From Stigmatella erecta (GTDB taxonomy: Bacteria; Myxococcota; Myxococcia; Myxococcales; Myxococcaceae): a stretch of DNA of 64,000 bases. A program made the position numbers and the translations under genes. Location: assembly GCF_900111745.1 (NCBI RefSeq), contig NZ_FOIJ01000018.1, forward strand, positions 62,001 through 126,000, in the 5' to 3' direction. A model generated the notes under the pieces. It ran no database searches. It saw only the letters and a program-made list of their open reading frames with translations, and was not told the DNA's origin. Each line of letters starts with the position of its first letter. The first letter of the stretch is position 1. Positions 14,474 to 61,843 of this stretch are shown here, one piece after another.

Positions 14474-14729
14474 GACACCTTTCACCTCTTCGTGGCCCCC
14501 GACGTGGATCCGGCCGGCAGTGCTTGTAACGCGTGCCCGCGGCGCCCGGAGCTGTCCTCCGGGAGGCCATGAGTAGAGCGGCGTCAACAATCGCGTATTC
14601 CGTGCAAATACAGTCCAGTCTGTTTTCAAGGGAATGAGGCGCTGCGGCCGGGAGGCAAGCGTTCCGGGCACCACATCTGTCCAGGAACGTCCTGCGAGGG
14701 GCTCCGGGGACGCGCCATGATGGCGTCAC

Positions 14730-15320
14730 ATGAAACCTCCCTCGTCTTATGTCGTCCTGGTCCGGCACGGAGAGACCGCCTGGAGCCGCAGTGGCCAGCA
14801 CACGGGCCGCACGGACATTCCCCTCCTGGAGGACGGGCGCCGGATGGGCATGGCCCTGGGCGCGCCCTTGAAGGGCTGGAGCTTCGCCGCGGTGTGGACC
14901 AGTCCCCTGAGCCGCGCCCGGGAGACCTGCCACCTCGCCGGCTATGGCCCGGCCGCCGAGCCGCGCGATGAGCTGATGGAGTGGGACTACGGGGCCTACG
15001 AGGGCAAGACGGGGGTGGAGATCCGCTCCCTGCTCCCGGACTGGAAGATCTGGCGCGATGGCGTTCCCCAGGGCGAGACGCTGGACCAGGTGCGCGCCCG
15101 GGCCGACCAGGTCATCGCCGCGGCCCGCCAGGTGGACGGCAACGTGCTGATGTTCTCCCATGGCCACTTCCTGCGCGTGCTCGCCGCGCGCTGGCTGGAG
15201 CTGCCCGCCTCCGAAGGGCGCCTCTTCTCGCTGAGCACCGCCTCCATCAGCGTGCTGGGCTGGGACGGCCAGCAGCCCCTCCTCATGAGCTGGAACGACA
15301 CCACCCACCTCCGGGAGTGA
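14730..15320 (+). CDS. Histidine phosphatase (phosphoglycerate mutase-like)
   Basis: The 196-residue protein has the catalytic RHGE motif (VVLVRHGETAWSRSGQHTGR) at residues 12-15, the phosphate-pocket TSPLSRARETC, the acid-base Glu in MEWDYGAYEG and the second catalytic His in MFSHGHFLRVLAARWL. This order and length match the branch 1 histidine phosphatases of the SixA/GpmB/CobC type. Those enzymes dephosphorylate small metabolites or protein histidines; the exact substrate cannot be read from the sequence. It is cytoplasmic and transcribed divergently from the class C-like hydrolase. Confidence 0.85.
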   Translation: MKPPSSYVVLVRHGETAWSRSGQHTGRTDIPLLEDGRRMGMALGAPLKGWSFAAVWTSPLSRARETCHLAGYGPAAEPRDELMEWDYGAYEGKTGVEIRSLLPDWKIWRDGVPQGETLDQVRARADQVIAAARQVDGNVLMFSHGHFLRVLAARWLELPASEGRLFSLSTASISVLGWDGQQPLLMSWNDTTHLRE

Positions 15321-15461: not shown

Positions 15462-16691
15462 ATGACGACGCTCTCCAAGCTCTCCCCCGCCGCCCCCCGC
15501 GCCACCCCCACCGCCCGCCCCGAGGCGGACGCTTCCCGCGTGCCCCCGGCGGCCGCGCCTGCGCGCGCGGAGGCCCGCTCCCCGGCGGATGGCTTCGAGG
15601 GGGCGAAGGCGGCCCGCTCGAACTTCGTGGACCGGCCGGGCCAGAACACCTTCGTGGACCGGCCCACGGGCCTGCGCCCGGCCGCGACGCTGCTCTCCTC
15701 GCCGGAGCGCGCCCCCGTGGCCCCGCTGGCGCGCACCTCCAGCGTGGATGGGCAGCCGCCGGTGAAGCCCTCCGGTCCGCCCGTGATCGCCATCTTCGAC
15801 GGCGGCGTGGACACGAAGCACACGGACCTGGACGGCGCCCTGTGGACCAACCCGGGTGAGGTGGCCGGCGACGGCCTCGACAACGACGGCAACGGCATCA
15901 AGGACGACCTCCACGGCTTCAACGTGGGCTTCAACTCGGGCGACCCGATGCAGGGCGCTGGCACGGACCACGGCACGCACGTGGCGGGCATCATCGCCGC
16001 CGAGGACAACGGCGAGGGCAACACCGGCGTGGCCGCGGGCAAGGCGCAGGTGCTCTCGGTGGGCGGCCTGTACGACGGCAACGACTTGCTGACGAACTTC
16101 GAGCGCTCGGTGGACTACGTGGTGGACCTGAAGAACAAGGGCGCCAACATCCGCGCGGTGAACGCCAGCTTCGGGGACGAGTACCGGGATGCCGCCTCGC
16201 AGAAGCGCTGGAACGCCGCCGTGCAGAAGCTGGCCGGCGCGGACATCCTCCTGGTGGCCGCCACCGCCAACGGCAACGGCAGCAACATGAACAAGGTGAA
16301 GGATTTCCCGGCCAACGTGGACCTGCCCAACGTCATCACCGTGGCCTCCATGGACAAGAAGAACGACAAGCTGGCGAGCTTCTCCTCGCACGGTGACAAG
16401 GTCGTCGAGCTGGCCGCCGTGGGCGAGGACGTGCTCAGCACCGTGCCCGGCAACAAGTGGGAGGAGATGAGCGGCACCTCCATGGCCACCCCGCGCGTGG
16501 CGGCCACCGCTGCCCTGATGTTCGCGGAAAACCCGGATCTCACCGCGGCCCAGGTGCGCGACATGCTGGTGAAGACGGTGGAGGTGGATCCGGATCTCAA
16601 GGGCAAGGTGAGCACCGGCGGCAAGCTGGACATCGAGGCGGCCGTGGCCGCGGCGCGCGCCTCGGCGGCCGCTGCCTTCGCCGCCCGCTGA
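15462..16691 (+). CDS. S8 family subtilisin-like protease without a visible export signal
   Basis: The 409-residue protein has the full subtilase triad: Asp113 in IAIFDGGVDTKHTDLDG, His170 in TDHGTHVAGIIAAEDN and Ser340 in EEMSGTSMATPRVAA, with oxyanion Asn in AATANGNGSN. The N-terminal ~105 residues are low-complexity (Ala, Pro, Arg) and include a repeated FVDRP motif (NFVDRPGQNTFVDRPTG). They do not look like a Sec signal and lack a pro-domain hydrophobic core. The catalytic domain contains an acidic DGLDNDGNGIKDD loop likely to bind calcium, as in thermitase-type enzymes. The ending VAAARASAAAAFAAR is Ala-rich. Calcium-binding serine proteases of this kind are usually secreted, so the export route is an open question. 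Confidence 0.85.
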   Translation: MTTLSKLSPAAPRATPTARPEADASRVPPAAAPARAEARSPADGFEGAKAARSNFVDRPGQNTFVDRPTGLRPAATLLSSPERAPVAPLARTSSVDGQPPVKPSGPPVIAIFDGGVDTKHTDLDGALWTNPGEVAGDGLDNDGNGIKDDLHGFNVGFNSGDPMQGAGTDHGTHVAGIIAAEDNGEGNTGVAAGKAQVLSVGGLYDGNDLLTNFERSVDYVVDLKNKGANIRAVNASFGDEYRDAASQKRWNAAVQKLAGADILLVAATANGNGSNMNKVKDFPANVDLPNVITVASMDKKNDKLASFSSHGDKVVELAAVGEDVLSTVPGNKWEEMSGTSMATPRVAATAALMFAENPDLTAAQVRDMLVKTVEVDPDLKGKVSTGGKLDIEAAVAAARASAAAAFAAR

Positions 16692-16745
16692 GCAACTGTT
16701 CACGAGTCGATGGGCTATCTTCCGCTCGCTTTCGGACGCCCATGT

Positions 16746-16767
16746 GTGTTCGTGGTTCCGCGAACAC
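16746..16767. promoter_or_regulatory. Inverted repeat between the subtilase and BoxB genes
   Basis: GTGTTCG (16746-16752) and CGAACAC (16761-16767) form 7-bp arms around an 8-nt spacer. It lies 55 nt after the subtilase stop and about 120 nt before the BoxB-type start, with no T-run after it. It could be a weak terminator or an operator. TTGTACAA at 16791-16798 is a further 8-bp palindrome in the same gap. Confidence 0.3.
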
Positions 16768-16888
16768 TTCCTGGGCGCCGGGGCGTGGCATTGTACAAAC
16801 GGCGGATCCCTTCCAGCCCGTGCTGAGCAACTACAAGCACGCGGCACCCTCGGCCCCGGGGTGATACGCGACTGGAGGAGTCCTCACC

Positions 16889-18313
16889 GTGCAACACATC
16901 CGCAGCGAGCCCATCCCCAACAACGTGGACCTGGACAGCGCACCCGGCATGGTGCGAGCGATGTCTCACTGGCAGTCCCGATTCAAGAGCTGGTGGATGG
17001 AGCGCGGCCCCTCCGGATTTCAGTCTCACGAGGTGTATCTGCGCACGGCGGTCAGCGTGGAGCCGGATGGCTGGGCCCGGTACGAGCACGTGCGGATGCC
17101 GGAGTACCGCTGGGGCATCTTCCTGGCCCCCTCGGTGCGGGAGCGCACCATCGGCTTCGGGGACATGCAGGGCAAGCCCGTGTGGCAGGAGCCCCCCGAG
17201 GAGCACCGGGACACGCTGCGCTGGCTCATCGCGATGCAGGGCGACGCGGAGCCCGCGTCCGTGGAGCAGCAGCGGCTGCTGGGGAGTACCTGCCCCTCGC
17301 TGTACGACTTGCGCAACCTGCTGCAGGTGAACGTGGAGGAAGCCCGCCACCTGTGGGGCATGTCCTACCTGCTGCTGCGCTACTTCGGCACCGAGGGCTG
17401 GACCGCGGCCGAGGAGCTGCTCGACCGGAGCAGCGGCGACACCCAGCGGCCGCGCGTGCTGGATGCCTTCAACGCCCCGGTGCGCGACTGGCTGCACTTC
17501 TTCATGTACACGGCCTTCACCGACCGGGTGGGCAAGGTGCAGCTCCAGGCGGCGGCCGAATCCGCGTTTGATCCGCTGGCCCGCACGGCGCGCTTCATGG
17601 CCACCGAGGAGGCCCACCACCTGTTCGTGGGCGAGACGGGCGTGGGGCGGGTGCTCCAGCGCACCGCGGAGCTGATGAAGGCCTCGCCCAACGGCAGCGC
17701 CAGCGAGGCGGGCGGCATCGACCTGCACGTCATCCAGCGCTACCTCAACCTCTGGTATTCGCTGACCATGGACCTGTTCGGCGCGGAGATGTCGCGCAAG
17801 GCGGGCGCCATCTTCGCCAGCGGCGTGAAGGGCCGGCCCCGGGAGGCGATGTTCGAGGACCACTGCGAGCGCGACCGCACGCTCCGCGTGGAGTCCTGGG
17901 ACAGGGCGGCGGGCGCGCTCCACTACCAGGACGTGCCGGTGCGTTTGGCGATGAACGAGGTGCTCCGGGGACTGTTCACGCTCGACTGCCGGGGCGTGGT
18001 GGAGCGCTGGAACAAGGTGCTGGCCTCCCAGGGACTTCAGGAGCGGTTGCAGTTGCCGTCCCGACGCTTCCACCGCCAGCAGGGACTGCTGTCTTCCGGC
18101 CACTTCGCGCCGGACGGAACCCCCGTGTCCGAGGAGGAGTGGGCGCGGCGCAAGGACACGTGGCTGCCCACGGAGGCGGACGAGGTGGCGGTGCGCCAGG
18201 TTCAGGCCCGGGCGGTGCTGTCGCGGGGGGAGATGGCGAACTGGATCGCCCCGCCGGCCCGGGGCATTCACGGCCGGCCGCTCGATTTCGAGTACGTGCG
18301 CACGGAGACGTAG
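16889..18313 (+). CDS. boxB: BoxB-like benzoyl-CoA 2,3-epoxidase subunit (diiron)
   Basis: The 474-residue product starts at the GTG at 16889 after GGAGGAG. It closely follows the BoxB pattern from the N-terminus (IPNNVDL, SRFKSWWMERGPSGFQ, VYLRTAVSVEPDGWARYEHV, MPEYRWGIFLAP). BoxB is the diiron oxygenase that with reductase BoxA epoxidises benzoyl-CoA in the aerobic box pathway. Two ExxH iron-binding motifs are present: Glu151 to His154 in VEEARHLWGM and Glu241 to His244 in TEEAHHLFVG, matching the ligand spacing known for BoxB. The length fits the family. No boxA, boxC lyase or CoA ligase is near it here, so it may work on another aryl-CoA or use partners encoded elsewhere. Confidence 0.85.
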   Translation: MQHIRSEPIPNNVDLDSAPGMVRAMSHWQSRFKSWWMERGPSGFQSHEVYLRTAVSVEPDGWARYEHVRMPEYRWGIFLAPSVRERTIGFGDMQGKPVWQEPPEEHRDTLRWLIAMQGDAEPASVEQQRLLGSTCPSLYDLRNLLQVNVEEARHLWGMSYLLLRYFGTEGWTAAEELLDRSSGDTQRPRVLDAFNAPVRDWLHFFMYTAFTDRVGKVQLQAAAESAFDPLARTARFMATEEAHHLFVGETGVGRVLQRTAELMKASPNGSASEAGGIDLHVIQRYLNLWYSLTMDLFGAEMSRKAGAIFASGVKGRPREAMFEDHCERDRTLRVESWDRAAGALHYQDVPVRLAMNEVLRGLFTLDCRGVVERWNKVLASQGLQERLQLPSRRFHRQQGLLSSGHFAPDGTPVSEEEWARRKDTWLPTEADEVAVRQVQARAVLSRGEMANWIAPPARGIHGRPLDFEYVRTET

Positions 18314-49715: not shown

Positions 49716-50624
49716 GTGCGAGGAGGCGTGAGCAGCAAGCTGGCGTGGGGCGGGGCGCTCGCCGTGGCCCTCGGGGTGGCCCTCTGGGCCGGGGCGCGCG
49801 CCTCGCGGCCCCCGGAGGCGCCCCCGGCCTTGACGCACCGGGACGTGCCCGCCGGGCCCGCGCGCCGGGAGACGCAAGGCTTCGTGGGCGTGGCCGTCAG
49901 CGAGAGCGTGGAGATCCGCGCCCCGTTCGAGGGCCGGCTGGAGCAGCTCACCGTGCGGCCCGGCGACGCGGTGGCGGCGGGGGAGGAGCTGGGGCGGCTC
50001 GACCCGCGCCCCGTGCAGCAGGAGGCCACCATGGCGGAGGCGCGGCTGGCGGCGGCCGAGGCGGAGGTGAGCCGGGTGGAGCTGGAGGCCCGCGAGGCGG
50101 GAGAGACGCTGGCGCGCTACCTGCGCTCGCCCGCCGGGGCGTTCTCCGAGCAGGAGCTGGCCACAGCGCGCCACCAGGAGCAGAGCGCGCGGATCCGCCT
50201 CACCGCGGCCCAGGCGCAGGTGCGCGAGCGGCGGGCGGTGCTGGCCCAGTCCCGCCAGCGGCTGGAGGAGGCGACGCTGCGGGCCCCGTGCGCGGGCAAG
50301 GTGGTGGAGCGCCGGGTGGATCCCGGCGGGTGGGTGGGCGGTGGCGTGCTCCTGCTGCGGCTGCTCCGGGAGGGGCCCGTGCAGGTGCGCTTCGCCATTC
50401 CCGAGGAGGCGCTGGGCGAGGTGCGCGTGGGCTCGCCCGTGTGGGTGGAGCTGCCGTCGCTGGGGCGCACGGTGAAGGGGCACGTGCGGGAGGTGGCGCC
50501 CGAGGTGGATGCGGCCTCGCGCATGGTGTTCGCCCAGGCGGTGTTCGAGGCGCAAGGGGAGGTGGAGGGGCTGGTGGTGGGCACCTCGGCGCGCGTGCTG
50601 TCCCCCGGCGCGCAGGCCCGCTGA
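49716..50624 (+). CDS. HlyD/RND-type periplasmic adaptor (first of two)
   Basis: The 302-residue protein starts at the GTG at 49716, close behind GGGAGCCGGAG; a second GTG at 49728 is possible. One N-terminal membrane anchor (AVALGVALWAGARA) precedes a lipoyl half (ESVEIRAPFEGRLEQLTVRP), an alpha-helical hairpin (about 105-185, EAEVSRVELEAREAGETLAR), the second lipoyl half (ATLRAPCAGKVVERRVDPGG) and a beta-barrel. This is the order of membrane fusion proteins that link an inner-membrane exporter to the outside. It is followed by a second adaptor (75 nt) and a C39 ABC exporter. Confidence 0.83.
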   Translation: MRGGVSSKLAWGGALAVALGVALWAGARASRPPEAPPALTHRDVPAGPARRETQGFVGVAVSESVEIRAPFEGRLEQLTVRPGDAVAAGEELGRLDPRPVQQEATMAEARLAAAEAEVSRVELEAREAGETLARYLRSPAGAFSEQELATARHQEQSARIRLTAAQAQVRERRAVLAQSRQRLEEATLRAPCAGKVVERRVDPGGWVGGGVLLLRLLREGPVQVRFAIPEEALGEVRVGSPVWVELPSLGRTVKGHVREVAPEVDAASRMVFAQAVFEAQGEVEGLVVGTSARVLSPGAQAR

Positions 50625-50699: not shown

Positions 50700-51635
50700 G
50701 TGGAGGACGAGGGCGCGGGGCTGTTCAGGACGGAGGCGCTCCAGCACTACGCGCAGGGCGGCGAGCGCGGCGGGCTGTTGAAGCTCTCCCCCCAATGGAC
50801 GGGCCCGGTGTTCTGGGTGCTGCTCGGGGCGTGCGTCTTCGCGCTCGTCTTCAGTGCCCTCGTCCACGTGTCCGAGTATGCGGAGGGCCCGGCGGTGGTG
50901 CAGCTGGAGGGGCGCATGGACCTGCCCTCGCCCGTGCGCGGCACCGTGGCCTCCGTGGAGGTGCGCTCGGGCGAGCGGGTGGCCGCGGGGCAGGTGCTGG
51001 CCCGGCTGGGCGCGGCGGCCGAACTGGCCGAGCTGGAGCGCTACGAGCGGGAGTTCGAGCAGCTGTTGCGCCAGCGCCTGCGGTCGCCCTCGGACGAGGG
51101 GGTGAGCCAGGCGCTGGCCTCGGTGCGCGCGCAGCGGGAGCTGGCCCGCGCGCGGCTGGAGCAGTGGACGGTGCGCGCGCCCGAGGCGGGCATCGTGAGC
51201 GACGTGCGCATCCGCCGCGGGCAGCACCTCGTGGAGGGCGAGCTGGTGGCCTCGCTGATGCGGGAGGACTCCGCCGCGGTGGTGACGGCCATGCTGCCCG
51301 GGGAGTACCGGCCGCTGCTCGCCGTGGGCAAGCCGCTGCGCCTGGAGCTGCGCGGCTTCCACCACCAGTACCAGGAGCTCACCATCGATGAGGTGGGCGG
51401 CGAGCTGGTGGGCCCCCAGGAGGTGCAGCGGGCCCTGGGCCCCACGCTGTCGGCGAGCCTGGAGGTGAACGGGGCGGTGGTGCTGGTGCGCTCGCGCGTG
51501 GCCTCCCGCTCGTTCCTGGCGGATGGCGAGCGCTTCCCGTACTTCGATGGGATGCTGGGCCAGGCGGATGCCCGCGTGCGCTCGCAGCCCATCCTGTTGA
51601 TGCTCATTCCGGGGCTCCGGGCCGTCTGGCCCTGA
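50700..51635 (+). CDS. HlyD-type adaptor (second), short hairpin
   Basis: The 311-residue product starts at the GTG at 50700 behind AGGAGGAGAGAGG. A transmembrane segment (FWVLLGACVFALVFSALVHV) follows about 40 cytoplasmic residues, then a lipoyl domain (MDLPSPVRGTVASVEVRSGE), a short alpha-hairpin (ELAELERYEREFEQLLRQRL), a second lipoyl half (WTVRAPEAGIVSDVRIRRGQ) and the beta-barrel. The long cytoplasmic N-terminus and the 20-nt gap to the exporter are as in bacteriocin-secretion accessory proteins such as ComB/LcnD-like ones. It presumably pairs with the C39 exporter. Confidence 0.83.
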   Translation: MEDEGAGLFRTEALQHYAQGGERGGLLKLSPQWTGPVFWVLLGACVFALVFSALVHVSEYAEGPAVVQLEGRMDLPSPVRGTVASVEVRSGERVAAGQVLARLGAAAELAELERYEREFEQLLRQRLRSPSDEGVSQALASVRAQRELARARLEQWTVRAPEAGIVSDVRIRRGQHLVEGELVASLMREDSAAVVTAMLPGEYRPLLAVGKPLRLELRGFHHQYQELTIDEVGGELVGPQEVQRALGPTLSASLEVNGAVVLVRSRVASRSFLADGERFPYFDGMLGQADARVRSQPILLMLIPGLRAVWP

Positions 51636-51654: not shown

Positions 51655-53850
51655 ATGTCCGAGTCCTCCCCGTCCCTCCTCGAACGGTTCCCGGTGCTGA
51701 AGCGGCTGGGCCTGGAGCCCGCCGGGAAGCGCATTCCGCACGTGCAGCAGGTGAGCGTGTCCGAGTGCGGCGCGGCGTGCCTCGCCATGGTGCTGGCCTA
51801 CTTCGGCCGGGACGTCCCCATGGAGGAGGTGCGCGACGTGATGGGGGTGAACGTCAACGGGGTGAGCGCGCTGGACATCCTCGACGCGGCGCACCGGTAT
51901 GGCCTGCGGGGCCGGGGCACGCGCCTGGAGATGGAGGACCTGGAGTACCTGCCCAAGGGCTCCATCCTCCACTGGGACTTCCGCCACTTCGTCGTCTTCG
52001 AGGGGCTGCGCGCGGGGCACGTGGACATCGTGGACCCGGCCATGGGCCGGCGCGCGGTACCGCTGGAGCAGTTCCGCCGGCACTTCACGGGCGTGGCGGT
52101 GCTGCTGGAGCCCTCGGAGTCCTTCGAGCGGGCCGGGCGCGAGGCGCGCTCCTCCTGGCGCTACGTGCGCCACCTGCTGTCGCACCGGGCGCTGCTGGGG
52201 CGCATCCTCGTCACCTCGCTCATGGTGCAGGTGTTCGCGCTGGGCCCGCCGGTGCTCATCGGGCTCGTCACGGACCGGGTGATTCCCCGGGGCGACACGG
52301 CCCTGCTGTGGGTGCTGGGCGCCGGCTCCGTGGGGCTCCTGCTCTTCCAGCTGCTCACCTCGCTGGTGCGCTCGCACCTGCTCCTGCACCTGCGCACCGA
52401 GTTCGATGCGCGGGTGACGCTCGGCTTCATCGAGCACCTGATGGAGCTGCCCTATGCCTTCTTCCAGCAGCGCACCGCCGGAGACCTGAGCAACCGCCTC
52501 AACAGCAATACCACCGTGCGCGAGCTGCTCACCTCGGGGGCGCTGTCCGGCCTGCTGGATGGGGCGATGGTGCTGGGGTACCTGGGCGTGCTGCTCGTGG
52601 CCAGCCCGGCGATGTGCGCGGTGGCGCTGGTGCTGGGGCTCGCCCAGGTGTCCATCTTCCTCGTCTCCCGCCGCAAGCAGCGCGAGCTGATGGCGCGCAA
52701 CCTGGAGACGGAGGCGCGCTCGCAGGCGTACCAGATTGAAGTCCTGGCGGGCATCGAGACGCTCAAGGCCACCGGCTGCGAGCCCCGGGCGCTGGAGCAC
52801 TGGTCCAACCTCTTCGTGGACGTGCTCAACGTGGCACTGGAGCGGGGCCGGCTGTCGCTGCTCACCGAGTCCTTCATGGGCACGCTGCGCCTGGGCTCGC
52901 CGCTGCTCATCCTGTGCTTCGGCGCGAGCCAGGTGCTCCAGGGCGAGCTGAGCCTGGGCGCCATGCTGGCGCTCAACGCGCTGGCGCTGGGGTTCCTGGG
53001 CCCCCTGTCCAACCTGGTCTCCACGGTGATGCAGTTCCAGCTCCTGGGCACCTACCTGGCGCGCATCGACGATGTGCTCGACACGCCCCGGGAGCAGTCC
53101 GCGCGGGTGCGGCCGTGTCCGAAGCTGCAAGGGGGCATCTGCCTGGAGAAGGTGTCCTTCCGCTACGCCCGGCAGGGGCCGCTCATCGTGGAGGACATCT
53201 CGCTCGACATCCGCCCCGGCCAGCTCGTGGCCATCGTCGGGCGCTCCGGCTCCGGCAAGTCCACCCTGGCGCGCCTGCTGCTGGGCATGTACCGGCCGGA
53301 CGCGGGGCGCATCCTCTACGACGGGCAGGACCTGTTCGAGCTGGATTTACGGGGCGTGCGGCGCCAGCTCGGCATCGTCATGCAGAACCCGTACGTGTTC
53401 GGCTCCACCGTGCGCTCCAACATCGCCCTGGCGGACCCCAGCCTGACCCTGGACGCGGTGGTGGAGGCGGCCCGGCTGGCGCAGCTCCACGAGGAGGTGC
53501 TCGCCATGCCCATGGGCTACGAGTCGCCGCTCGTGGACCAGGGCACCTCGCTGTCCGGCGGGCAGCGGCAGCGGCTGGCGCTGGCGCGGGCGCTGGTGCG
53601 CAAGCCCGCCATCCTCCTCTTGGACGAGGCCACGAGCGCCCTGGATGCCATCACCGAGTCCCAGGTGCAGCAGGCGCTCTCGGGCCTGTCCTGCACGCGC
53701 ATCGTCATTGCCCACCGGCTCAGCACCATCATGGACGCCGACCTCATCCTGACGTTGGACGAGGGCCGGCTGGCCGAGTCCGGCCGCCACGAGGAGCTGC
53801 TGGCCCGCGGGGGGCACTACGCCGAGCTGGTGGCGGCCCAACTGCGCTGA
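51655..53850 (+). CDS. C39-peptidase-containing ABC exporter (bacteriocin type)
   Basis: The 731-residue protein is a PCAT. Its N-terminal peptidase C39 domain has Cys38 in VQQVSVSECGAACLAM, His in DFRHFVVFEG and Asp in VDIVDPAMGRRAVPL. Six hydrophobic membrane helices follow (about 165-445), then the ABC domain with Walker A VGRSGSGKSTL, signature LSGGQRQRLALA and Walker B ILLLDEATSALDA. PCATs cut a substrate leader after Gly-Gly and export the peptide. A matching 54-residue double-glycine-leader peptide is at 59029-59193. With the two upstream adaptors it forms an export operon. Confidence 0.92.
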   Translation: MSESSPSLLERFPVLKRLGLEPAGKRIPHVQQVSVSECGAACLAMVLAYFGRDVPMEEVRDVMGVNVNGVSALDILDAAHRYGLRGRGTRLEMEDLEYLPKGSILHWDFRHFVVFEGLRAGHVDIVDPAMGRRAVPLEQFRRHFTGVAVLLEPSESFERAGREARSSWRYVRHLLSHRALLGRILVTSLMVQVFALGPPVLIGLVTDRVIPRGDTALLWVLGAGSVGLLLFQLLTSLVRSHLLLHLRTEFDARVTLGFIEHLMELPYAFFQQRTAGDLSNRLNSNTTVRELLTSGALSGLLDGAMVLGYLGVLLVASPAMCAVALVLGLAQVSIFLVSRRKQRELMARNLETEARSQAYQIEVLAGIETLKATGCEPRALEHWSNLFVDVLNVALERGRLSLLTESFMGTLRLGSPLLILCFGASQVLQGELSLGAMLALNALALGFLGPLSNLVSTVMQFQLLGTYLARIDDVLDTPREQSARVRPCPKLQGGICLEKVSFRYARQGPLIVEDISLDIRPGQLVAIVGRSGSGKSTLARLLLGMYRPDAGRILYDGQDLFELDLRGVRRQLGIVMQNPYVFGSTVRSNIALADPSLTLDAVVEAARLAQLHEEVLAMPMGYESPLVDQGTSLSGGQRQRLALARALVRKPAILLLDEATSALDAITESQVQQALSGLSCTRIVIAHRLSTIMDADLILTLDEGRLAESGRHEELLARGGHYAELVAAQLR

Positions 53851-53854
53851 GCCC

Positions 53855-54865
53855 TCAGCGGCAGATGGCCTCCAGCAAGTCCAGGGGCTGGAGCGGGAAG
53901 GGCGGGTGCGGCGGCTTGCGCGCCTGGATGACCTGCTCGATGAAGCTGTCGCCCCACGTCTGGGCGATGCCGGGGTCCTCGGCGTAGATGGGGTCCTCCA
54001 TCGCCGCGTCGAGGGTGATGAAGCGGACGCCCGCCTTCTCGTAGCTGGTGAGCAGCGCGTCCAGGGTGTCGGCCTGGAAGGAGCCCGCGTGCAGCAGCAG
54101 CACGTGGCGGATGCGGCGGCCGAACACCTGCTGCGCGGCGGCGTCCGCCCAGCGCAGGAAGGAGCGCGCGGTCTTCTGGTAGCCCTTGCGCAGCGACTCT
54201 TGAAGCTGGGGCTTGCCCTGGGCCGCGCAGCGGGCGGCGGCCTCGTTCCAGGCCCAGTCCCCGAAGTCGATGGTCACCTGCGCCACGCGGTAGCCCTTGC
54301 CGGCGAGGTGGGCGCGGATGGCGGTGCGCGACTCCGCGTCCACGCCCTCCTGGAGGAAGGGGTAGCGGAACGTCTTCCACGCGCGCTCCGGGGTGCCCGG
54401 GCCCGCCAGCTCGCGCAGCAGCGGCTCGTTGCGGTCGATGTCCTGGAGGTATGCCGCGAGCCCCACCTTCCCAAGGTCCACATGGGACCAGGTGTGGTTG
54501 CCCAGCAGGTTGCCCGCCGCGAGCCAGGTTTCGAGGACGGCCCGGTCCGCAGGCTGCTGCTCCACGAGCTGGCCGTTGACGTAGCCCACCGCGGACGGCA
54601 CGCCGTGCTTGCGCAGCGTGGCGTTGATGGACTCGATGACGGCCATGCGCGACACGCCGGGGAACGCCGGGCCGTGGCTGGGCAGATCATCGAACGTCAG
54701 CGCCACCTCCAGGGGAGGCGGGGGCGCGGCTTCGGCCGGGGGCGGGGCGGCGGAGGGCGTCATGAGCGGTTCCGGGCGCGCGGTGGCGCAAGCGCAGAAG
54801 GACAGCACCGTGACCGGGGCGAGCCAACCGGCCAGGCGCCGGAGCACGGGGAACAGCAAGGACAT
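53855..54865 (-). CDS. NodB-type polysaccharide deacetylase lipoprotein
   Basis: The 336-residue product has a lipoprotein-type signal (MSLLFPVLRRLAGWLAPVTV, lipobox FCAC), a short Pro/Ala linker, and the NodB motifs: LTFDDLPSHGP (catalytic Asp pair), the zinc-binding N-H-T-W-S-H and the RYPFLQEG motif 3, with HAGSFQADTLDALL near the end. Such CE4 enzymes deacetylate peptidoglycan, chitin or exopolysaccharide at the surface. It faces the export operon tail to tail with a 4-nt gap and is divergent from the glycosyltransferase at 54962. I see no evidence that it acts on the peptide. Confidence 0.85.
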   Translation of the reverse strand: MSLLFPVLRRLAGWLAPVTVLSFCACATARPEPLMTPSAAPPPAEAAPPPPLEVALTFDDLPSHGPAFPGVSRMAVIESINATLRKHGVPSAVGYVNGQLVEQQPADRAVLETWLAAGNLLGNHTWSHVDLGKVGLAAYLQDIDRNEPLLRELAGPGTPERAWKTFRYPFLQEGVDAESRTAIRAHLAGKGYRVAQVTIDFGDWAWNEAAARCAAQGKPQLQESLRKGYQKTARSFLRWADAAAQQVFGRRIRHVLLLHAGSFQADTLDALLTSYEKAGVRFITLDAAMEDPIYAEDPGIAQTWGDSFIEQVIQARKPPHPPFPLQPLDLLEAICR

Positions 54866-54961: not shown

Positions 54962-56398
54962 ATGCGCGTTGCCCTGCTCGGATTCGGTCCTCACCCCTGG
55001 CCCAGCGTGGAGCGGACCCGCCGCTTCTACGAGCGGGCGCTCTCCGCCCGCTTCACCCTGGACGTGGTGGAGGAGGGGACGCCGGTACCCGAGGGCGTGG
55101 ACGCCGTGCTCTCCTTCTCCGGCCGCTGGGGCTGGGAGGAGCGGCCCCGGGTACAGGTGCCGTTCCTCTTCGCGATGCATGGGGGGCCCATCCTGGAGCA
55201 GGAGGCCCTCGCCTCGCGGCTGGGCACGCTGGATCGCTCGGACGTGCTGCTCGTCAACTGCACCTCGGACATCGCCATCTTCCGCGAGGTGTTCGCCGGG
55301 CAGACGCCGCACCTGTGCCAGTTGCCCCTGCCGGGCGATGCGGCGCTCTTTCACCCGCGCGAGAAGACGGAGTGCCGCGAGCTGCTCGGCATCGAGTCCC
55401 ATGAGCTCGTGGTGGGTTTCGTCGGCCGGCTGGTGCCGCAGAAGAACGCGCACCGGTTCCTGCGCATGCTGGCGGAGCTGCGCCGGCGGCTGCACCCGCG
55501 CCGGGTGGCCGGCGTGGTGATTGGCAACTACTGGGTGGACTACCCCGTGCTGAACTACACCCCGGACTACCCGGGGGAGGTGGCCCGCCTCATCTCGGGG
55601 CTCCAGCTCACCGACGACGTGTTCTACTTCCCGGCCAACCTGGCGGACGAGGACCTGGCCTCGGCGTATGCCGCCATGGATGTCCTCATCCACCCCACGC
55701 ACTCCATCGACGAGAACTTCGGCTACGTGCCGGTGGAAGCCATGGCCTGCGGGGTGCCCGTGGTGGGCGCGGCGTATGGCGGGCTAAAGGACACCGTCGT
55801 CCCGGGGGAGACGGGGGAACTCATGCCCACCTGGGTGACGCGCTCCGGCCTGCGCTCGGACTTCCTGCATGGGGTGGACGCGGCGGAGCGGCTGCTCAAG
55901 GACGAGACGCTGCGCCAGCGCTTCTCCGAGGCAGCCGTGAGGCGGGCGCGCGCTCACTATAATGAGGAGACCTGTGCCCGCGTGCTGTGCGAGGCGGTGG
56001 AGGGCGCGGTGAAGGCCCGTAGGGAAGGGCCCGCCCGGCCCCTGGTGCTGGCTCCTCGGCCTCCCACGCCGGAGCCCTCGGGCCTGTTGCCGTCCCTGCC
56101 GGCGCCCTGGGAGTTCTACGCCCGCGAGGTGCGCCACTACGCGAGCGGCCCCGTGCCGGTGCCGGGGCCCCGCTCCCGCCTGTCCCTGGCGGCCCCGCTC
56201 ACCGAGGAGTCCCCGGGGGTGTGGCGGCTGGAGGACGCGGCGTGGCCCGCGCGCTTCCGGCTGGATGCGGCCGGGAGGGCCCTGGCCGAGCGCTGCCGCG
56301 AGCCCGTCACCGTGGCGGGGCTGGAGCGCGAGGGGCTCTGGCACCGCGAGCGGGTGGAGGATTTCCTCCAGCAGGGGCTGCTCCTGTGCGGAGATTGA
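54962..56398 (+). CDS. GT-B glycosyltransferase (GT1/GT4-like) with PqqD/RRE-like C-terminal domain
   Basis: The 478-residue protein has the GT-B core: N-terminal Rossmann (MRVALLGFGPHPWPSVERTR), the GRLVPQKNAHRFLRML sugar-nucleotide side, and the E-x7-E region NFGYVPVEAMACGVPVVGAA. After a Pro-rich linker (about 355-380), residues about 415-478 (PGVWRLEDAAWPARFRL, then AAGRALAERCREPVTVAG and RVEDFLQQGLLL) have the helix-and-strand spacing of PqqD-like RiPP recognition elements. I infer that this domain binds a peptide leader, which would make it a peptide-specific transferase. This is the weakest and most important assignment here; it needs profile comparison. Confidence 0.62.
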   Translation: MRVALLGFGPHPWPSVERTRRFYERALSARFTLDVVEEGTPVPEGVDAVLSFSGRWGWEERPRVQVPFLFAMHGGPILEQEALASRLGTLDRSDVLLVNCTSDIAIFREVFAGQTPHLCQLPLPGDAALFHPREKTECRELLGIESHELVVGFVGRLVPQKNAHRFLRMLAELRRRLHPRRVAGVVIGNYWVDYPVLNYTPDYPGEVARLISGLQLTDDVFYFPANLADEDLASAYAAMDVLIHPTHSIDENFGYVPVEAMACGVPVVGAAYGGLKDTVVPGETGELMPTWVTRSGLRSDFLHGVDAAERLLKDETLRQRFSEAAVRRARAHYNEETCARVLCEAVEGAVKARREGPARPLVLAPRPPTPEPSGLLPSLPAPWEFYAREVRHYASGPVPVPGPRSRLSLAAPLTEESPGVWRLEDAAWPARFRLDAAGRALAERCREPVTVAGLEREGLWHRERVEDFLQQGLLLCGD

Positions 56399-56430: not shown

Positions 56431-57297
56431 GTGAGCGCCCGTCCCGAACTGTCCATCATCATCCCCTGGAAAGACCGTCCCGAGCTGGGCATCACCCTGC
56501 GGCGCAACCGCCGCGTCTTCGTGGCGAATGGCTACGAGGTGCTGGTGGTGAGCTGCGGCGGCGCCCCGAAGCCCTTCCGGGAGCTGCTCAGCGCGCACCG
56601 CTTTCCGGGCCTGCGCGGCGTGGAGCTGCCGGACACCATGTTCAACAAGGGGCTGGCGCTCAACATCGGAGCGTCCCTGGCCCAGGCCGAGCGCCTCTTC
56701 TTCCTCGATGCGGACATCGTGCTGCGCGGCGACTTCCTGGGTGAGTCCATGAAGCGCCTGGGCACGAAGTACTTCCTCACCGTGGACCGCGTCTTCGAGT
56801 CCGAGAAGCCGGAGACCGAGCGCAGCTCGTACCTGCGCGAGCTGTCCTACGCGATGAGCTTCGTGGACAACAAGGGCCGCACCGCCCACGTGGAGACCAA
56901 CCACCTGAACCTGCGCGACGGCAGCCGCAGCGGCCCCGGCATGGTGCTGCTGCGCCGCAAGCACTTCGAGGCGGTGAACGGGATGAACTCGGACCTGTTC
57001 GGCTGGGGCTGGGAGGACCTGGACCTGCTCGTGCGCCTGCAATTGGAGCTGGGCCTGTCGCAGCGCAAGCACGGCAACATCGTCCACCTCTCCCACGGGG
57101 ACGACCGGAGAGACCTCGGCGGCGAGAGCCGGGGCATCAGCGAGCACCGCAACCTCGCCCGCTGCCTGGAGAACTACCAGCGCGGCCACTACTGGGGCAC
57201 GCGCGTGGACGACGTGCAGACGTGGGAAGGGCGCGCCGTCCGGGTCGAGCCCGAGCCCCGCAAGCGGGGCGGCAAGCCCCTCACGCCGGCCGCGTAG
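56431..57297 (+). CDS. GT-A glycosyltransferase (GT2-like, GT7C-type motif)
   Basis: The 288-residue product starts at the GTG at 56431, 32 nt after the GT-B gene. It has the GT-A signature ELSIIIPWKDRPELGITL, a DxD motif in LFFLDADIVLRGDFLG, and the WGWEDLDLLVRLQ sequence of the galactosyltransferase/GT7C C-terminal domain, found also in polypeptide GalNAc transferases. No membrane segment is present. Its position between the putative RRE-bearing transferase and the peptide genes suggests a second sugar addition. Its end overlaps the convergent 558-residue gene by 17 nt. Confidence 0.75.
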   Translation: MSARPELSIIIPWKDRPELGITLRRNRRVFVANGYEVLVVSCGGAPKPFRELLSAHRFPGLRGVELPDTMFNKGLALNIGASLAQAERLFFLDADIVLRGDFLGESMKRLGTKYFLTVDRVFESEKPETERSSYLRELSYAMSFVDNKGRTAHVETNHLNLRDGSRSGPGMVLLRRKHFEAVNGMNSDLFGWGWEDLDLLVRLQLELGLSQRKHGNIVHLSHGDDRRDLGGESRGISEHRNLARCLENYQRGHYWGTRVDDVQTWEGRAVRVEPEPRKRGGKPLTPAA

Positions 57298-58957
57298 GCG
57301 CGGACGCCCAGGGCTCCACGGGCACGGTCAACTGGGTGGCCGCCGTGTCGAGCGCCGAGAAGGTCTCGTCCACGAGCTGCTGGATGCCCTCCGCGACGGC
57401 CTCGGGCGCCAGCCCCTGGGGGAAGAGCACCTTCAGCCGGCCCCGGCCCTTGGACCAGTCTCCATCCCAGCGCACGTCCCGGCCGGGGAAGCGCCGGGCC
57501 ACGCGCTCCACCAGCTCCTTCACGCGCGGGCCCATGGGGCGCACCGCATCGCTCTCCAGGTGGATCTCCGCGCCCACGTCGCCGCCGTAGTCGAGCAGCT
57601 CGTAGTGCATGGCGCGCGGCCAGGACGGGGGGCCCATGCGGCGGAAGTGCGGGAAGCCGCCCCGGGCCTGGAGGTGGGGCGGGGCATGGCGCGAGTAGCG
57701 CGCGACGATGTCCTCGAATGCCGGGCGTCCCCCGGGCGCGGGCGGTGCCAGGGTGTAGAGCCCCTCCTCCACGGGCGAGGGCCCACGCGGCTCCAGGGAG
57801 ACGCCGGCTGGCAGGGGCGGCAGGGCGTCGAAGTCCACGGTGAAGCGCGCGAAGTCCTCCTGGGTGAGGGCCCGGCCCTCGGCGCGGGCGCGCTGCGCCT
57901 CCTGGAGCAGGGTGATGCCGCGGCGGTAGTGGCCGAAGTGCAGGAAGCACTCCTGGAAGTCCGTGTACGGCAGGAAGCGGGGCAGGGTGCGGTTGAGCCG
58001 GTTGGCCACGAAGGCCATGGCGTTCCAGTGCTCGGGCGCGATGGGATAGCCGGCCGCGTGCGCCAGCCCCGCCAGCTCGATGAGGTGCCCGGCGTAGTAG
58101 CAGTGGTTCTCCAGCGGGCTCTCGATGAGGATCGCCTCGCGCAGCTGGGTCAGCAGGGTGCCCGGCCCGGCCCGGCCGCCCGAGGCCGCGAGCACGTCCA
58201 CCTGCTCCAGCACCGCGCCCAGCAGGAAGAGGATGTCGAGCTGGCCCGACAGGAAGCCCTGGGCGTCCTCCCGGAAGCCCTCCATGCCGCGAATGCGCGC
58301 CGCCGCGGCGCAGAGCCCTTCCGTGAGGTGAACCTTGCGGCAGACCTCGAAGCCGCCGTAGTGGTGCGCCTCCACGGCGCATGCCAGCAGGGACTTCACG
58401 TCGTGGACGGCGTCGCCCATGAAGAAGGGCGCCTGGGCGGACTCGGGCTCCAGGTAGGCCAGGGCGAAGAGCAGGTGCCCCAGCTCGATGCCATCCGTCA
58501 CGTTGAGCTGGCGGCTGTTGAGGGCGATCTCCCGGAAGGAGGCGCGCGCGCCGGGCAGCGGGTGGCCCGGGGAGACGCCGGCCATGACCGTGTAGGCGAT
58601 GCCCTGCCAGGGGTGGAACTCGCCCTCGGGGTCTCTCTGGAGGATGAAGGGGCGCCCGGCCTCGTTGCGGTGGACGAAGGGCTCCAAGTGCTCCAGCAGG
58701 GGCCGGCCTCGCAGCCGCGCGTTGCCCCAGCCATTGAGCAGGTGGCCGGTGTGGGGCAGCGAGTCGCGCTCCAGGATTTCATCGATGTGCCGCCCCATCA
58801 TGTGGGCCAGCAGGTCTGACGCCGCCTGGCAGGCGTCCACCTCCAGGGCGCAGGGTTCGCGCCGCATCCGCTCCCGGAAGGCGTCGAACGCCTCTTGCTC
58901 ACGGGGGGACAGCTCGAAGGGCCACCAGAAGCGGTCGTCGGACGGGGATTCGGACAC
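57281..58957 (-). CDS. Protein of unknown family downstream of the peptide gene
   Basis: The 558-residue product starts at the GTG at 58957, behind a weak site, 72 nt after the peptide gene and beyond a hairpin. It is mainly alpha-helical and soluble. Residues 1-380 contain conserved-looking His/Cys clusters (HYGGFEVCRKVHLTEG, NHCYYAGHLIELAGLA, FQECFLHFGHYRRG). Residues 400-558 form a separate alpha/beta part (AMHYELLDYGGDVGAEIHLE, GRLKVLFPQGLAPEAVAEGI). No family is recognised. Its position and the lack of other genes in the transcript suggest a role in handling or modifying the peptide, such as immunity or maturation. This is inference. Confidence 0.55.
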   Translation of the reverse strand: MSESPSDDRFWWPFELSPREQEAFDAFRERMRREPCALEVDACQAASDLLAHMMGRHIDEILERDSLPHTGHLLNGWGNARLRGRPLLEHLEPFVHRNEAGRPFILQRDPEGEFHPWQGIAYTVMAGVSPGHPLPGARASFREIALNSRQLNVTDGIELGHLLFALAYLEPESAQAPFFMGDAVHDVKSLLACAVEAHHYGGFEVCRKVHLTEGLCAAAARIRGMEGFREDAQGFLSGQLDILFLLGAVLEQVDVLAASGGRAGPGTLLTQLREAILIESPLENHCYYAGHLIELAGLAHAAGYPIAPEHWNAMAFVANRLNRTLPRFLPYTDFQECFLHFGHYRRGITLLQEAQRARAEGRALTQEDFARFTVDFDALPPLPAGVSLEPRGPSPVEEGLYTLAPPAPGGRPAFEDIVARYSRHAPPHLQARGGFPHFRRMGPPSWPRAMHYELLDYGGDVGAEIHLESDAVRPMGPRVKELVERVARRFPGRDVRWDGDWSKGRGRLKVLFPQGLAPEAVAEGIQQLVDETFSALDTAATQLTVPVEPWASAPTRPA

Positions 58958-59028: not shown

Positions 59029-59193
59029 CTACTTGGACACGTCGGGCAGCTGGGGCTGCTCACAGCAGCCCTGGGTGCAGCAGCCACGGATGAGAGCTCC
59101 GCCCACGGTCTTGGACAGATCCTCACGGGTCAGCTTGCGGCCCGGGGTCCGGCCCTGGAACTTCTCGTTCTGTTCGGTCTTCTTGTCGCTCAT
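59029..59193 (-). CDS. Double-glycine-leader, Cys-rich peptide precursor (candidate RiPP)
   Basis: The ATG at 59193 has a perfect AAAGGAGG site (59202-59209) 8 nt before it. The 54-residue peptide starts MSDKKTEQNEKFQGR and its leader ends KLTREDLSKTVGG (residues 20-32). This fits the double-glycine leader: Leu at -12, an acidic residue at -8, Leu at -7 and Gly-Gly at -2/-1. Predicted cleavage after Gly32 leaves a 22-residue core that begins ALIRGCCTQGCCEQPQ, with vicinal cysteine pairs at 38-39 and 43-44. The core has few Ser/Thr for lanthionine, and no radical SAM gene is near. The C39 exporter (51655-53850) and the glycosyltransferases are the likely partners. A small metal-binding protein is the main alternative. 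Confidence 0.8.
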   Translation of the reverse strand: MSDKKTEQNEKFQGRTPGRKLTREDLSKTVGGALIRGCCTQGCCEQPQLPDVSK

Positions 59194-59224
59194 CGCATGC
59201 GCCTCCTTTCAAGGTCGCCTGGTG

Positions 59225-59293: not shown

Positions 59294-60154
59294 ATGGACA
59301 CGGAACGGCGGGACGAGCAAGCGCACCGGGCACCCGGGATGGCCTTCACCATCATGCACGCGGCGTTCGACACGGGCCGCGCGGGAATGTTGCGGCGTCT
59401 GGAGGAAGCACTCCGCGCGGAGCTGGGCGAGCGCGACCAGCTGCACGTGGAGCGTGACACCGTGCGGCGCGGCGTCTGGTCCGTGGCGAGCGCCTGCTGG
59501 GAGTGGGGCATCGCGCGGGCCGCTCAGGGCATCACCCACGTGGTGGTGCTCAACGACGATGCCGAGCCCTGCCCGGGCTTCGTGGAGGCCGTGCGGGGGG
59601 CGCTGGCGGCACGGCCTCTGCACCCGGTGTGCTTTTATTCCAACCACGAGACGGCCCTCCTGGCCTACGAGCAGGGAGATGCGTGGTGGACCTCCGATGA
59701 TGGCCTGGTGGGCGTCACGTGTGCGCTGCCCGTGACGCTGGCCCGGGACTTCCTGGCGTGGGAGCGGGTCTCCCTGGTGGAGCGTCCCTTCCCGGGGATG
59801 CCCGACGATGCGCGCCTGAACATCTGGGCCATGGCCCACGAGCGCCCCATCTGGCACGCCCGCGGGTTGGTGGAGCACGGCGCGCCCGCCACGAGCCTCG
59901 TGGGCAATGATGGCCACGAAGGGCGGCGCTCCCTCACGCCGGTGCCCGCCACGCGAGAGGAGGCGCTGGCCATCGACTGGAGCCAGGGCCTCGAAGCACC
60001 GCTGCATGATTTGGTGTACGGACGCTCGCCCATCCATTTGCTCCACGAGGTGAAGCCCGAGGTGCGCGAGCGCATGGGGCTGGAGCGCATCGTCGACCAG
60101 CTCTGGGGCGAAGAGGCCCCCCAGGCCCGCGCCTTCTACGGACGGAAGCGCTGA
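59294..60154 (+). CDS. GT-A-like protein (third putative glycosyltransferase)
   Basis: The 286-residue product starts at the ATG at 59294, although the in-frame ATG at 59339 (MAFTIMHAAF) is also plausible given the promoter position. It has a GT-A-type core: FTIMHAAFDTGRAGMLRRLE, ITHVVVLNDDAEPCPGFVEA with a DD(A) nucleotide-sugar site, and SDDGLVGVTCALPVTLARDF. Family membership is weaker than for the GT at 56431. It is divergent from the peptide gene and shares the palindrome. It may act on the peptide or on unrelated glycans. Confidence 0.58.
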   Translation: MDTERRDEQAHRAPGMAFTIMHAAFDTGRAGMLRRLEEALRAELGERDQLHVERDTVRRGVWSVASACWEWGIARAAQGITHVVVLNDDAEPCPGFVEAVRGALAARPLHPVCFYSNHETALLAYEQGDAWWTSDDGLVGVTCALPVTLARDFLAWERVSLVERPFPGMPDDARLNIWAMAHERPIWHARGLVEHGAPATSLVGNDGHEGRRSLTPVPATREEALAIDWSQGLEAPLHDLVYGRSPIHLLHEVKPEVRERMGLERIVDQLWGEEAPQARAFYGRKR

Positions 60155-60247: not shown

Positions 60248-61843
60248 ATGAGACAGCAACCCTTGGTGGACATCTCGACGGTGGACGCGGTGGAGCGCCA
60301 GCGCGGGCAGCCCTCCGCGCCGCTCGTGCCCGCGCTGACCCTCGTGTCTCACCCCGTGGCGGATCGCGCGGGAGAGCGCGTGTTGCTCTCCCCCCTGCGG
60401 GGCGTGGCCCTCTCGCGCAACGAGCCTGCCTTCATGCGCCCGGGCCAGGGGACCGGCATGCACCTGGCGGATCCGTTCCTGAGCCGCAAGCCCGTGACGT
60501 TCTTCGCGCAGCCGGACGGACGTGTCCGGCTGGAGCCGGGCGAGGGCAGCCGCGTGGCCGTGGCGGGGCTCGTGCTCGAAGGGCCGTGGGAGTTCTCCGC
60601 CGAAGAGGTGGCAGCCGGGGTGCCGCTGGAGCTGGCCGGGCGCGTGGTGCTGCTACTGCATCTGGCGGAGCCTGCCTCGGTGGAGGCGCCGGACGCGCTG
60701 GGCATGGTGGGCAGCAGCGTGGGCCTTCAGCGCGTGCGCCGGCTCATCGAGCAGGTGGCGGACCTGAACGTGCCGGTGCTCATCCGGGGAGAAACAGGTT
60801 CGGGCAAGGAGCTGATCGCCCAGGCCATCCACCGGCGAAGCCCCCGCCGCAACAAGCCCTTCGTGAGCGTGAATCTGGGCGCCATCCCCAAGGAGCTGGC
60901 GGCCGTGGAGCTGTTCGGCGCGCGCAAGGGCGCCTTCACGGGCTCGGTGCGGGACCAGGAGGGTTTCTTCCAGGCAGCCCACGGCGGCACGCTCTTCCTG
61001 GACGAGGTGGGTGAGGCTCCGCCCGAGGTTCAGGTGATGCTGCTGCGCGTGCTGGGCACCGGGGAAATCTACCCCGTGGGCGAGCGCTCCCCCGTCACCG
61101 TGGACGTGCGGCTGGTGGCCGCGACGGATGCGCTGCTGGAGCAGCAGATTCAAGAGGGCCGCTTCAAGGCGCCCCTGCTGCACCGGCTCTCGGGGTTCGC
61201 CATCCGCGTGCCGCCCCTGCGGGAGCGGCGTGAGGACGTGGGGGTGCTGTTCCACCACTTCGCCCGCGAGGAGCTGGAGCCGCTCGGCGAGCTCAAGCGC
61301 CTGAGCCCGGAGGAGGCCACGGCCGAGCCCTGGCTGCCCCCGGCGCTGGCGGTGCGGCTGGTGCGCCATGACTGGCCCGGCAACATCCGGCAGCTTCGCA
61401 ACGTGGTGCGGCAGCTCGTCATCGGCAACCGGGGCCAGCCCCGCCTCCAGCTCGATGCCCAGCTCGAAGCGGAGCTGGCCACGCTGAACGCCGCGGCCTC
61501 GGGCCGGCCCAGCGAGAAGCCCGCGGCTCTCGCGGCGAGTGCCTCGCCCCGCCGCAAGCCCTCGGACATCACCTCCCAGGAGCTGCTGGCCGCGCTCCGG
61601 GAGAGTGGCTGGGAGTTCCAGGCCGCCGCGGACCGGCTGGGCATCTTCCGCACGTCCATCTACGACTTGATCGAACGCAGCCCCGGCATCCGCACCGCGG
61701 GCTCGCTGAGCGTGGAGGAGCTGAAGCGCTGCCACCGGGAGTGCGCGGGGGACGTGAACGCCATGGTGCGCAAGCTCGAGGTGTCCAAGCGGGCCCTGGT
61801 CCGCAGGCTCAAGGAGCTGGGACTGGGCGCCCAGGAGGGATGA
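60248..61843 (+). CDS. FHA-like/AAA+ enhancer-binding-type regulator with GAFTGS loop
   Basis: The 531-residue regulator has an N-terminal region (about 1-150) with an FHA-like stretch (GEGSRVAVAGLVLEGPWEFS), then a sigma54-interaction AAA+ domain (about 160-405) with Walker A GETGSGKELIAQ, loop KGAFTGSVRDQEGF, Walker B GGTLFLDEVGE and PLRERREDVGVLFHHF. The C-terminus has two Fis-type helix-turn-helix units: EFQAAADRLGIFRTSIYDLI and GDVNAMVRKLEVSKRALVRR. The activation loop reads GAFTGS rather than GAFTGA. It belongs to the myxobacterial bEBP class; the target is unknown. It starts 93 nt after the GT-A-like gene. Confidence 0.82.
   Translation: MRQQPLVDISTVDAVERQRGQPSAPLVPALTLVSHPVADRAGERVLLSPLRGVALSRNEPAFMRPGQGTGMHLADPFLSRKPVTFFAQPDGRVRLEPGEGSRVAVAGLVLEGPWEFSAEEVAAGVPLELAGRVVLLLHLAEPASVEAPDALGMVGSSVGLQRVRRLIEQVADLNVPVLIRGETGSGKELIAQAIHRRSPRRNKPFVSVNLGAIPKELAAVELFGARKGAFTGSVRDQEGFFQAAHGGTLFLDEVGEAPPEVQVMLLRVLGTGEIYPVGERSPVTVDVRLVAATDALLEQQIQEGRFKAPLLHRLSGFAIRVPPLRERREDVGVLFHHFAREELEPLGELKRLSPEEATAEPWLPPALAVRLVRHDWPGNIRQLRNVVRQLVIGNRGQPRLQLDAQLEAELATLNAAASGRPSEKPAALAASASPRRKPSDITSQELLAALRESGWEFQAAADRLGIFRTSIYDLIERSPGIRTAGSLSVEELKRCHRECAGDVNAMVRKLEVSKRALVRRLKELGLGAQEG

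Follow-up and report, generated by a model that had tools for sequence, protein, structure and literature searches.

In the 64,000-nucleotide stretch of Stigmatella erecta DNA that was analysed here (the window), an open reading frame of 54 codons raises the question whether so short a gene is real and, if it is, what is made of the peptide that it encodes. An earlier note on this DNA had read it as a Gly-Gly-leader peptide with two vicinal cysteine pairs whose pattern fits a substrate of the C39 exporter encoded 5 kb away. The position given there proved exact, with the gene lying on the minus strand (Table 1), and the translation bears out both halves of the description: a leader ending in T-V-G-G, in which the Gly-Gly occupies residues 31-32 and Leu stands at -7 and -12, and a 22-residue core in which two Cys pairs are arranged as CC-x3-CC within GCCTQGCCE. 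The perfect Shine-Dalgarno site that the note had named is also there, the minus-strand sequence upstream of the gene reading CTTGAAAGGAGGCGCATGCG-ATG, and AAGGAGG is likewise found upstream of precursor homologs in three other genomes (G013, G033 and G581, see below). When the window was scanned for open reading frames of 25-130 amino acids with a Shine-Dalgarno sequence of at least 5 nucleotides and a GG-type leader with hydrophobic residues at -12/-7/-4, two were retrieved, and 59029-59193 alone contains a CCx2-4CC motif.

Table 1. Features of the peptide locus (positions in the window; leader and core in residues of the precursor)
Feature	Position	Strand	Remarks
Second HlyD/RND-type adaptor protein	49728..50624	plus	
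HlyD-type adaptor protein	50700..51635	plus	adjoins PCAT
C39-peptidase ABC exporter (PCAT)	51655..53850	plus	full C39 domain
Polysaccharide-deacetylase-family protein	53855..54862	minus	divergent from GT4
GT4 glycosyltransferase	54962..56398	plus	conserved C-terminal extension of ~100 aa
GT2 glycosyltransferase	56431..57297	plus	convergent with 558-aa gene; galactosyltransferase-7C-like C-terminal part
558-aa protein	57281..58957	minus	71 nt downstream of precursor, same strand
GC-rich 16-bp stem-loop	58983..59020 (approximate)	minus	between precursor stop and 558-aa gene
Precursor peptide, 54 aa	59029..59193	minus	ATG start; MSDKKTEQNEKFQGRTPGRKLTREDLSKTVGGALIRGCCTQGCCEQPQLPDVSK
Precursor leader	residues 1-32		MSDKKTEQNEKFQGRTPGRKLTREDLSKTVGG
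Precursor core	residues 33-54		22 aa; ALIRGCCTQGCCEQPQLPDVSK
Shine-Dalgarno sequence of precursor	59202..59209	minus	AAAGGAGG; ends 8 nt before ATG
286-aa protein	59294..60154	plus	divergent from peptide; seen in window genus only
Sigma-54 activator, Fis-type HTH	60248..61843	plus	adjoins peptide in window genome (G000) and congener (G003) only

The relatives of the peptide settle the first part of the question. Precursor relatives occur in four of the 59 related genomes searched, namely the window genome itself (G000), a congener (G003; 96% identity, E = 5.8e-32) and two members of another genus of the same family (G013 and G033; E ~1e-12, with two tandem copies each), and all of these precursors carry GCCTQGCC. 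A search that started from the adjacent 558-aa gene added two carriers, both Acidobacteriota: the MAG L046 (JAIVJI010000023.1), which encodes three tandem precursor peptides, and G581, which encodes one, and in these GC[C/T]TQxCC[E/D] is retained. The note had proposed to look for conservation of the cysteine spacing: all ten peptides, from six genomes and two phyla, share GCxTQxCC without exception. In an alignment of nine of them, RTPxRKL (leader) and IxGCxTQxCC (core) are among the invariant stretches, and the tenth (G581, outside this alignment) has VRKL in the leader and LGCCTQGCCER in the core. Conservation of the leader, also proposed there, holds in part: the Gly-Gly is kept in the window, in G003 and in all four G013/G033 copies, but is absent from the acidobacterial leaders (KDDISSTSVLIRGC; TGNANEFIDMLILGC). 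At the DNA level, the nine core codons of the window and of G581 show five base differences, all synonymous, which points to selection on the peptide, and five of 165 bases differ between the precursor genes of the window and G003, two of them residue-changing, both in the leader, and none in the core. Because the precursor is conserved across relatives, a chance open reading frame is excluded; 59029-59193 is a real, conserved precursor gene of a small cysteine-rich peptide. Searches of plasmid collections returned no match to the precursor peptide or to the 558-aa protein, and a literature search returned no paper with CCTQGCC or CTTQKCC. A separate observation concerns L046, in which GCTTQKCC peptides lie together with genes for LanB, a LanC-domain protein and a radical SAM-SPASM enzyme (14285-14925, 16243-17593, 946-2250): where the second core Cys has become Thr, LanB is present as well, and one idea is that a thioether could then stand where a disulfide would otherwise form.

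Around the precursor gene, scans for sigma-70 promoters and intrinsic terminators returned none. The stem-loop that follows the precursor (-31 kcal/mol, z = -2.1) is also present in G003 and may serve as an attenuator that keeps the level of the downstream enzyme below that of the precursor, and the sigma-54 activator is a possible candidate regulator of the cluster. The 286-aa protein has no Pfam match, and a DDA motif noticed by eye suggests a GT-A fold.

What is made of the peptide is best approached through the genes that travel with it. Full-length genes for the 558-aa protein are found in four of 195 genomes of the phylum set of the window, the same four that have the peptide, and in two of 396 genomes of the L046 phylum, both of which also encode peptides; the peptide lies close by in every one of these six genomes. 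This occurrence of the two genes in exactly the same genomes was counted in favour of a joint system. A GT4 and a GT2 glycosyltransferase are found in the same cluster as the peptide and the 558-aa gene in all six. The peptides thus form a conserved gene family with an invariant GCxTQxCC core, encoded beside 558-aa, GT4 and GT2 genes in six genomes of two phyla. The picture drawn in the earlier note, of a peptide and its exporter, therefore had to be widened to these three always-present partners, the exporter alone being insufficient. Three genomes (G049, G093 and G464) were rejected as carriers of the system, as the C-terminal domain of the 558-aa protein alone matches there; in G049 and G093 (L059 and L060), which belong to another family of the order, relatives of this domain terminate nuclease-like proteins that, judged by eye, resemble PD-(D/E)XK nucleases.

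PCATs require Gly-Gly (or GA/GS) at -2/-1 and hydrophobic residues at -7/-12 of the leader (PMC12457901), a rule that the leaders of the window and of G003 obey and those of the acidobacterial relatives do not. At E<=1e-100 the window genome encodes no second member of the family of the exporter 51655-53850, and in related genomes LanC-domain genes are found a few kb at most from several relatives of this exporter (among them the pairs G013:C1:7968635 with 7973774 and G001:C23:169437 with 166355), which marks it as a RiPP-type exporter. Its linkage to the peptide, together with the two HlyD genes, is seen in G000 and G003 only: in G013 and G033 the surroundings of the peptides, surveyed over about 16-20 kb, contain no exporter, the nearest in G033 being about 41 kb away, and no C39 exporter adjoins the acidobacterial peptides of L046 and G581. 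The exporter, unlinked in G013/G033, was for this reason dropped as a defining partner. The proposal that the peptide is a C39 substrate consequently stands as far as the PCAT-type leader and the full C39 domain go, but the exporter is linked in one genus and the acidobacterial members have no Gly-Gly. Because the leaders there lack this motif, another protease must act in these lineages; the L046 cluster holds a prolyl oligopeptidase gene and genes for two ABC transporters without a C39 domain near the peptides.

One alternative is an unglycosylated bacteriocin or signal peptide of the ordinary double-glycine type, with two disulfides, that the C39 transporter cuts and exports, the glycosyltransferases then belonging to a neighbouring surface-polysaccharide locus. 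The PCAT-type leader agrees with it, as does the location of the exporter and of the HlyD genes 5 kb from the peptide, and glycosyltransferases and deacetylases occur in polysaccharide loci too; the deacetylase gene of the window also adjoins the cluster in G003 and G033, was not seen adjoining it in G013 and is thus optional. Yet in G013, G033 and the acidobacteria, where no exporter is adjacent, the glycosyltransferases and the 558-aa gene stay, and the clustering of GT4 and GT2 in two phyla, with 47-67% identity from one genus or phylum to another, is unlike a chance neighbourhood. We therefore consider this alternative unlikely.

The partner nearest to the peptide, the 558-aa protein, has no Pfam or NCBIfam match and no PDB relative by sequence. 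In an AlphaFold2 model built from two sequences (mean pLDDT 65), residues about 40-360 adopt an alpha/alpha-toroid-like arrangement that matches GH154 (Z 11.8) and the cellulase CelA (11.5), followed by drimenyl diphosphate synthase (11.4) and transcobalamin (about 11), and the fold of residues about 405-540 recalls that of type III secretion chaperones and of YbjN (Z about 7); Foldseek with this model gave no match at E<=0.001. Alpha/alpha toroids are a common fold, and on a mostly helical model such Z values would show arrangement, not function. His and Cys residues that are invariant in six sequences (e.g., C206, H210, C216, H285, C286, H291, H340 and H343) suggest a putative catalytic or metal site, and a peptide-modifying enzyme is proposed. 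LanC is an alpha/alpha toroid as well, and the product could accordingly be imagined as lanthipeptide-like, with Thr-Cys thioether rings and the 558-aa toroid as a LanC-like cyclase. This would suit L046, the only carrier in which LanB lies near the peptides, where the LanC-domain protein and the radical SAM-SPASM enzyme are likewise encoded near its three peptides and where the second core Cys has become Thr, as if a thioether had replaced a disulfide; LanB (PF04738), however, is absent from G000 and G003, the 558-aa family has no sequence-profile relation to LanC, and ahead of its C-terminal tail the window core offers a single Thr and no Ser, all of which makes a lanthipeptide-like product very improbable. 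As a LanC homologue, the 558-aa protein was rejected on an hhalign comparison with a LanC-domain alignment (P = 0.6) and for want of a Pfam LANC_like match; that LanC chains are not among the 50 structure matches listed excludes nothing.

Of the two glycosyltransferases, GT2 has invariant DxD and GWGWED/WGWED motifs and GT4 an invariant E-x7-E region in the five genomes aligned. Profile matches of GT2 in the PDB are of the PglI type and, for its C-terminal half, beta-1,4-galactosyltransferases; no SunS/ThuS chain is named at E<=10, nor is a glycocin glycosyltransferase model found among the NCBIfam matches at E<=1. GT4 is of the MshA/BshA kind, and its C-terminal extension is conserved in all six genomes; an apparent gap and frameshift interrupt it in L046, possibly through a fault of the MAG assembly. 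The extension has no Pfam match and its hydrophobic pattern resembles that of PqqD-like RREs, to which hhalign relates it weakly (P = 0.0017-0.0026, probability 12-16%, with unrelated alignments at P 0.2-0.5), and the structure model of GT4 (pLDDT 40) is too poor to use. Judged by this pattern, the extension is possibly a winged-helix, leader-binding (RRE-like) domain. The constant presence of both enzymes beside the peptide suggests that the products of the family are probably sugar-decorated.

A candidate for the sugar comes from G013 and G033, in which the 558-aa gene is followed directly, within the peptide operon (L033 11440-14878 and L035 11181-14619), by genes for an NTP-transferase/GmhB/kinase fusion, a HddA-like GHMP kinase and a GmhA-like isomerase, which we take to perform steps of GDP-D-glycero-alpha-D-manno-heptose synthesis. 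Because this cassette lies in the peptide operon in two genomes, heptose is a possible sugar. In G581, a GmhA-like isomerase gene stands between the peptide and the 558-aa gene. The cassette is not linked to the peptide in the window genus nor in the LanB-bearing acidobacterium; the window genome has the same cassette (58-69% identity) on another contig, in an O-antigen-type cluster, and G013 and G033 have a single HddA each, so that the cassette of these two genomes could also serve the cell envelope. The C-terminal P-loop kinase (PF00485) of the fusion protein has no obvious role in GDP-heptose synthesis. A literature search returned no paper joining heptose, RiPP, glycosyltransferase and precursor peptide.

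The glycosyltransferases also bear on another alternative, a peptide-derived cofactor or a metal- or thiol-handling peptide whose Cys pairs bind metal or act in redox reactions and which stays in the cell or envelope. Mycofactocin and bufferins are peptide-derived. GT4 and GT2 are weakly similar to the models of mycothiol MshA and mycofactocin MftF, the peptide is single-copy in some genomes, and its nine-residue core is extremely conserved across phyla between variable flanks, a degree of conservation that could also suit a non-exported cofactor with a redox or metal function. So rare and patchy a distribution (4/195 and 2/396 genomes) does not, however, resemble that of cofactors, neither a dehydrogenase partner nor a metal-responsive gene turned up, and members of the window's family have a PCAT-type leader. 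Such a role for the peptide is quite unlikely.

The reading that we favour, and hold to be reasonably probable, is a new RiPP family whose precursor is this peptide: the 558-aa protein and the two glycosyltransferases would modify it, and in the window genus the C39 transporter would cleave it and carry it out of the cell. The pathway that follows is inferred, as are the attachment of a sugar, the identity of that sugar and what the 558-aa protein does chemically. In it, a modification enzyme would hold the precursor by its leader stretch RTPxRKL (or VRKL), perhaps with a C-terminal domain, either that of GT4 or that of the 558-aa protein, and the 558-aa protein would modify the core. The glycosyltransferases would put a sugar, which may be heptose, on the conserved Thr and/or Cys of the core, and the four cysteines would pair to form a compact, doubly bridged core. 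In the window genus, the C39 domain would then cut after the Gly-Gly and the 22-residue product would be exported with the HlyD proteins, its likeliest role being that of a secreted antagonistic or signalling peptide. More tentatively, at somewhat less than even chances, the family may represent a new class of glycosylated RiPPs in Myxococcota and Acidobacteriota, with a doubly bridged core decorated by GT4 and GT2, possibly with heptose, and dependent on a new alpha/alpha-toroid family of peptide-modifying enzymes; should the 558-aa protein turn out to perform a new kind of reaction, a new class is possible. In practice, the 558-aa gene is a handle to the short precursors of the family, which gene callers easily miss. 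A nearly invariant nine-residue core, two different glycosyltransferases and an orphan 558-aa family make up a small, clonable system and a place to look for new peptide chemistry.

Comparison with known systems places the family beside several of them. RREs fused to PF00535 glycosyltransferases have been reported (PMC12710340), and here, too, a peptide cluster encodes a glycosyltransferase that carries a small additional domain; unlike in those fusions, the extension is C-terminal, sits on a GT4 enzyme and resembles RREs weakly. The likeness to NHLP/Nif11 systems with NHLM exporters lies in the C39 exporter, which is nearest to TIGR03796, but its 629.6 bits fall below the curated cut-off of that model (853.3), the leader is short, and no Nif11 or nitrile-hydratase domain was found. 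The class I/II lanthipeptides of Myxococcota and Acidobacteriota share related PCAT exporters, and one acidobacterial cluster has LanB and LanC genes beside the same peptide family; in contrast, the window genome has no LanB, the 558-aa protein is unrelated to LanC by profile, and the core is almost devoid of Ser and Thr. To our knowledge, glycosylated ribosomal peptides are few, and the characterised glycocins have one recognisable glycosyltransferase type. In its working the present family would resemble glycocins or other RiPPs exported by PCATs. With glycocins (sublancin, glycocin F, thermoglycocin/orniglycocin) the family shares a short Cys-rich core behind a leader, a C39-domain PCAT nearby and glycosyltransferases in the cluster, and with sublancin in particular hydrophobic leader residues at -7/-12 (PMC12457901). 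Unlike glycocins, it has no nested-disulfide helix-loop-helix, the 22-residue CCx3CC core being too short and without spaced Cys pairs; it has two glycosyltransferases, GT4 and GT2/GT7C-like, with no SunS/ThuS chain among the PDB matches; it has an additional 558-aa family; and other lineages have no C39 linkage or no Gly-Gly. By the features tested, the family is neither a glycocin nor a lanthipeptide family.
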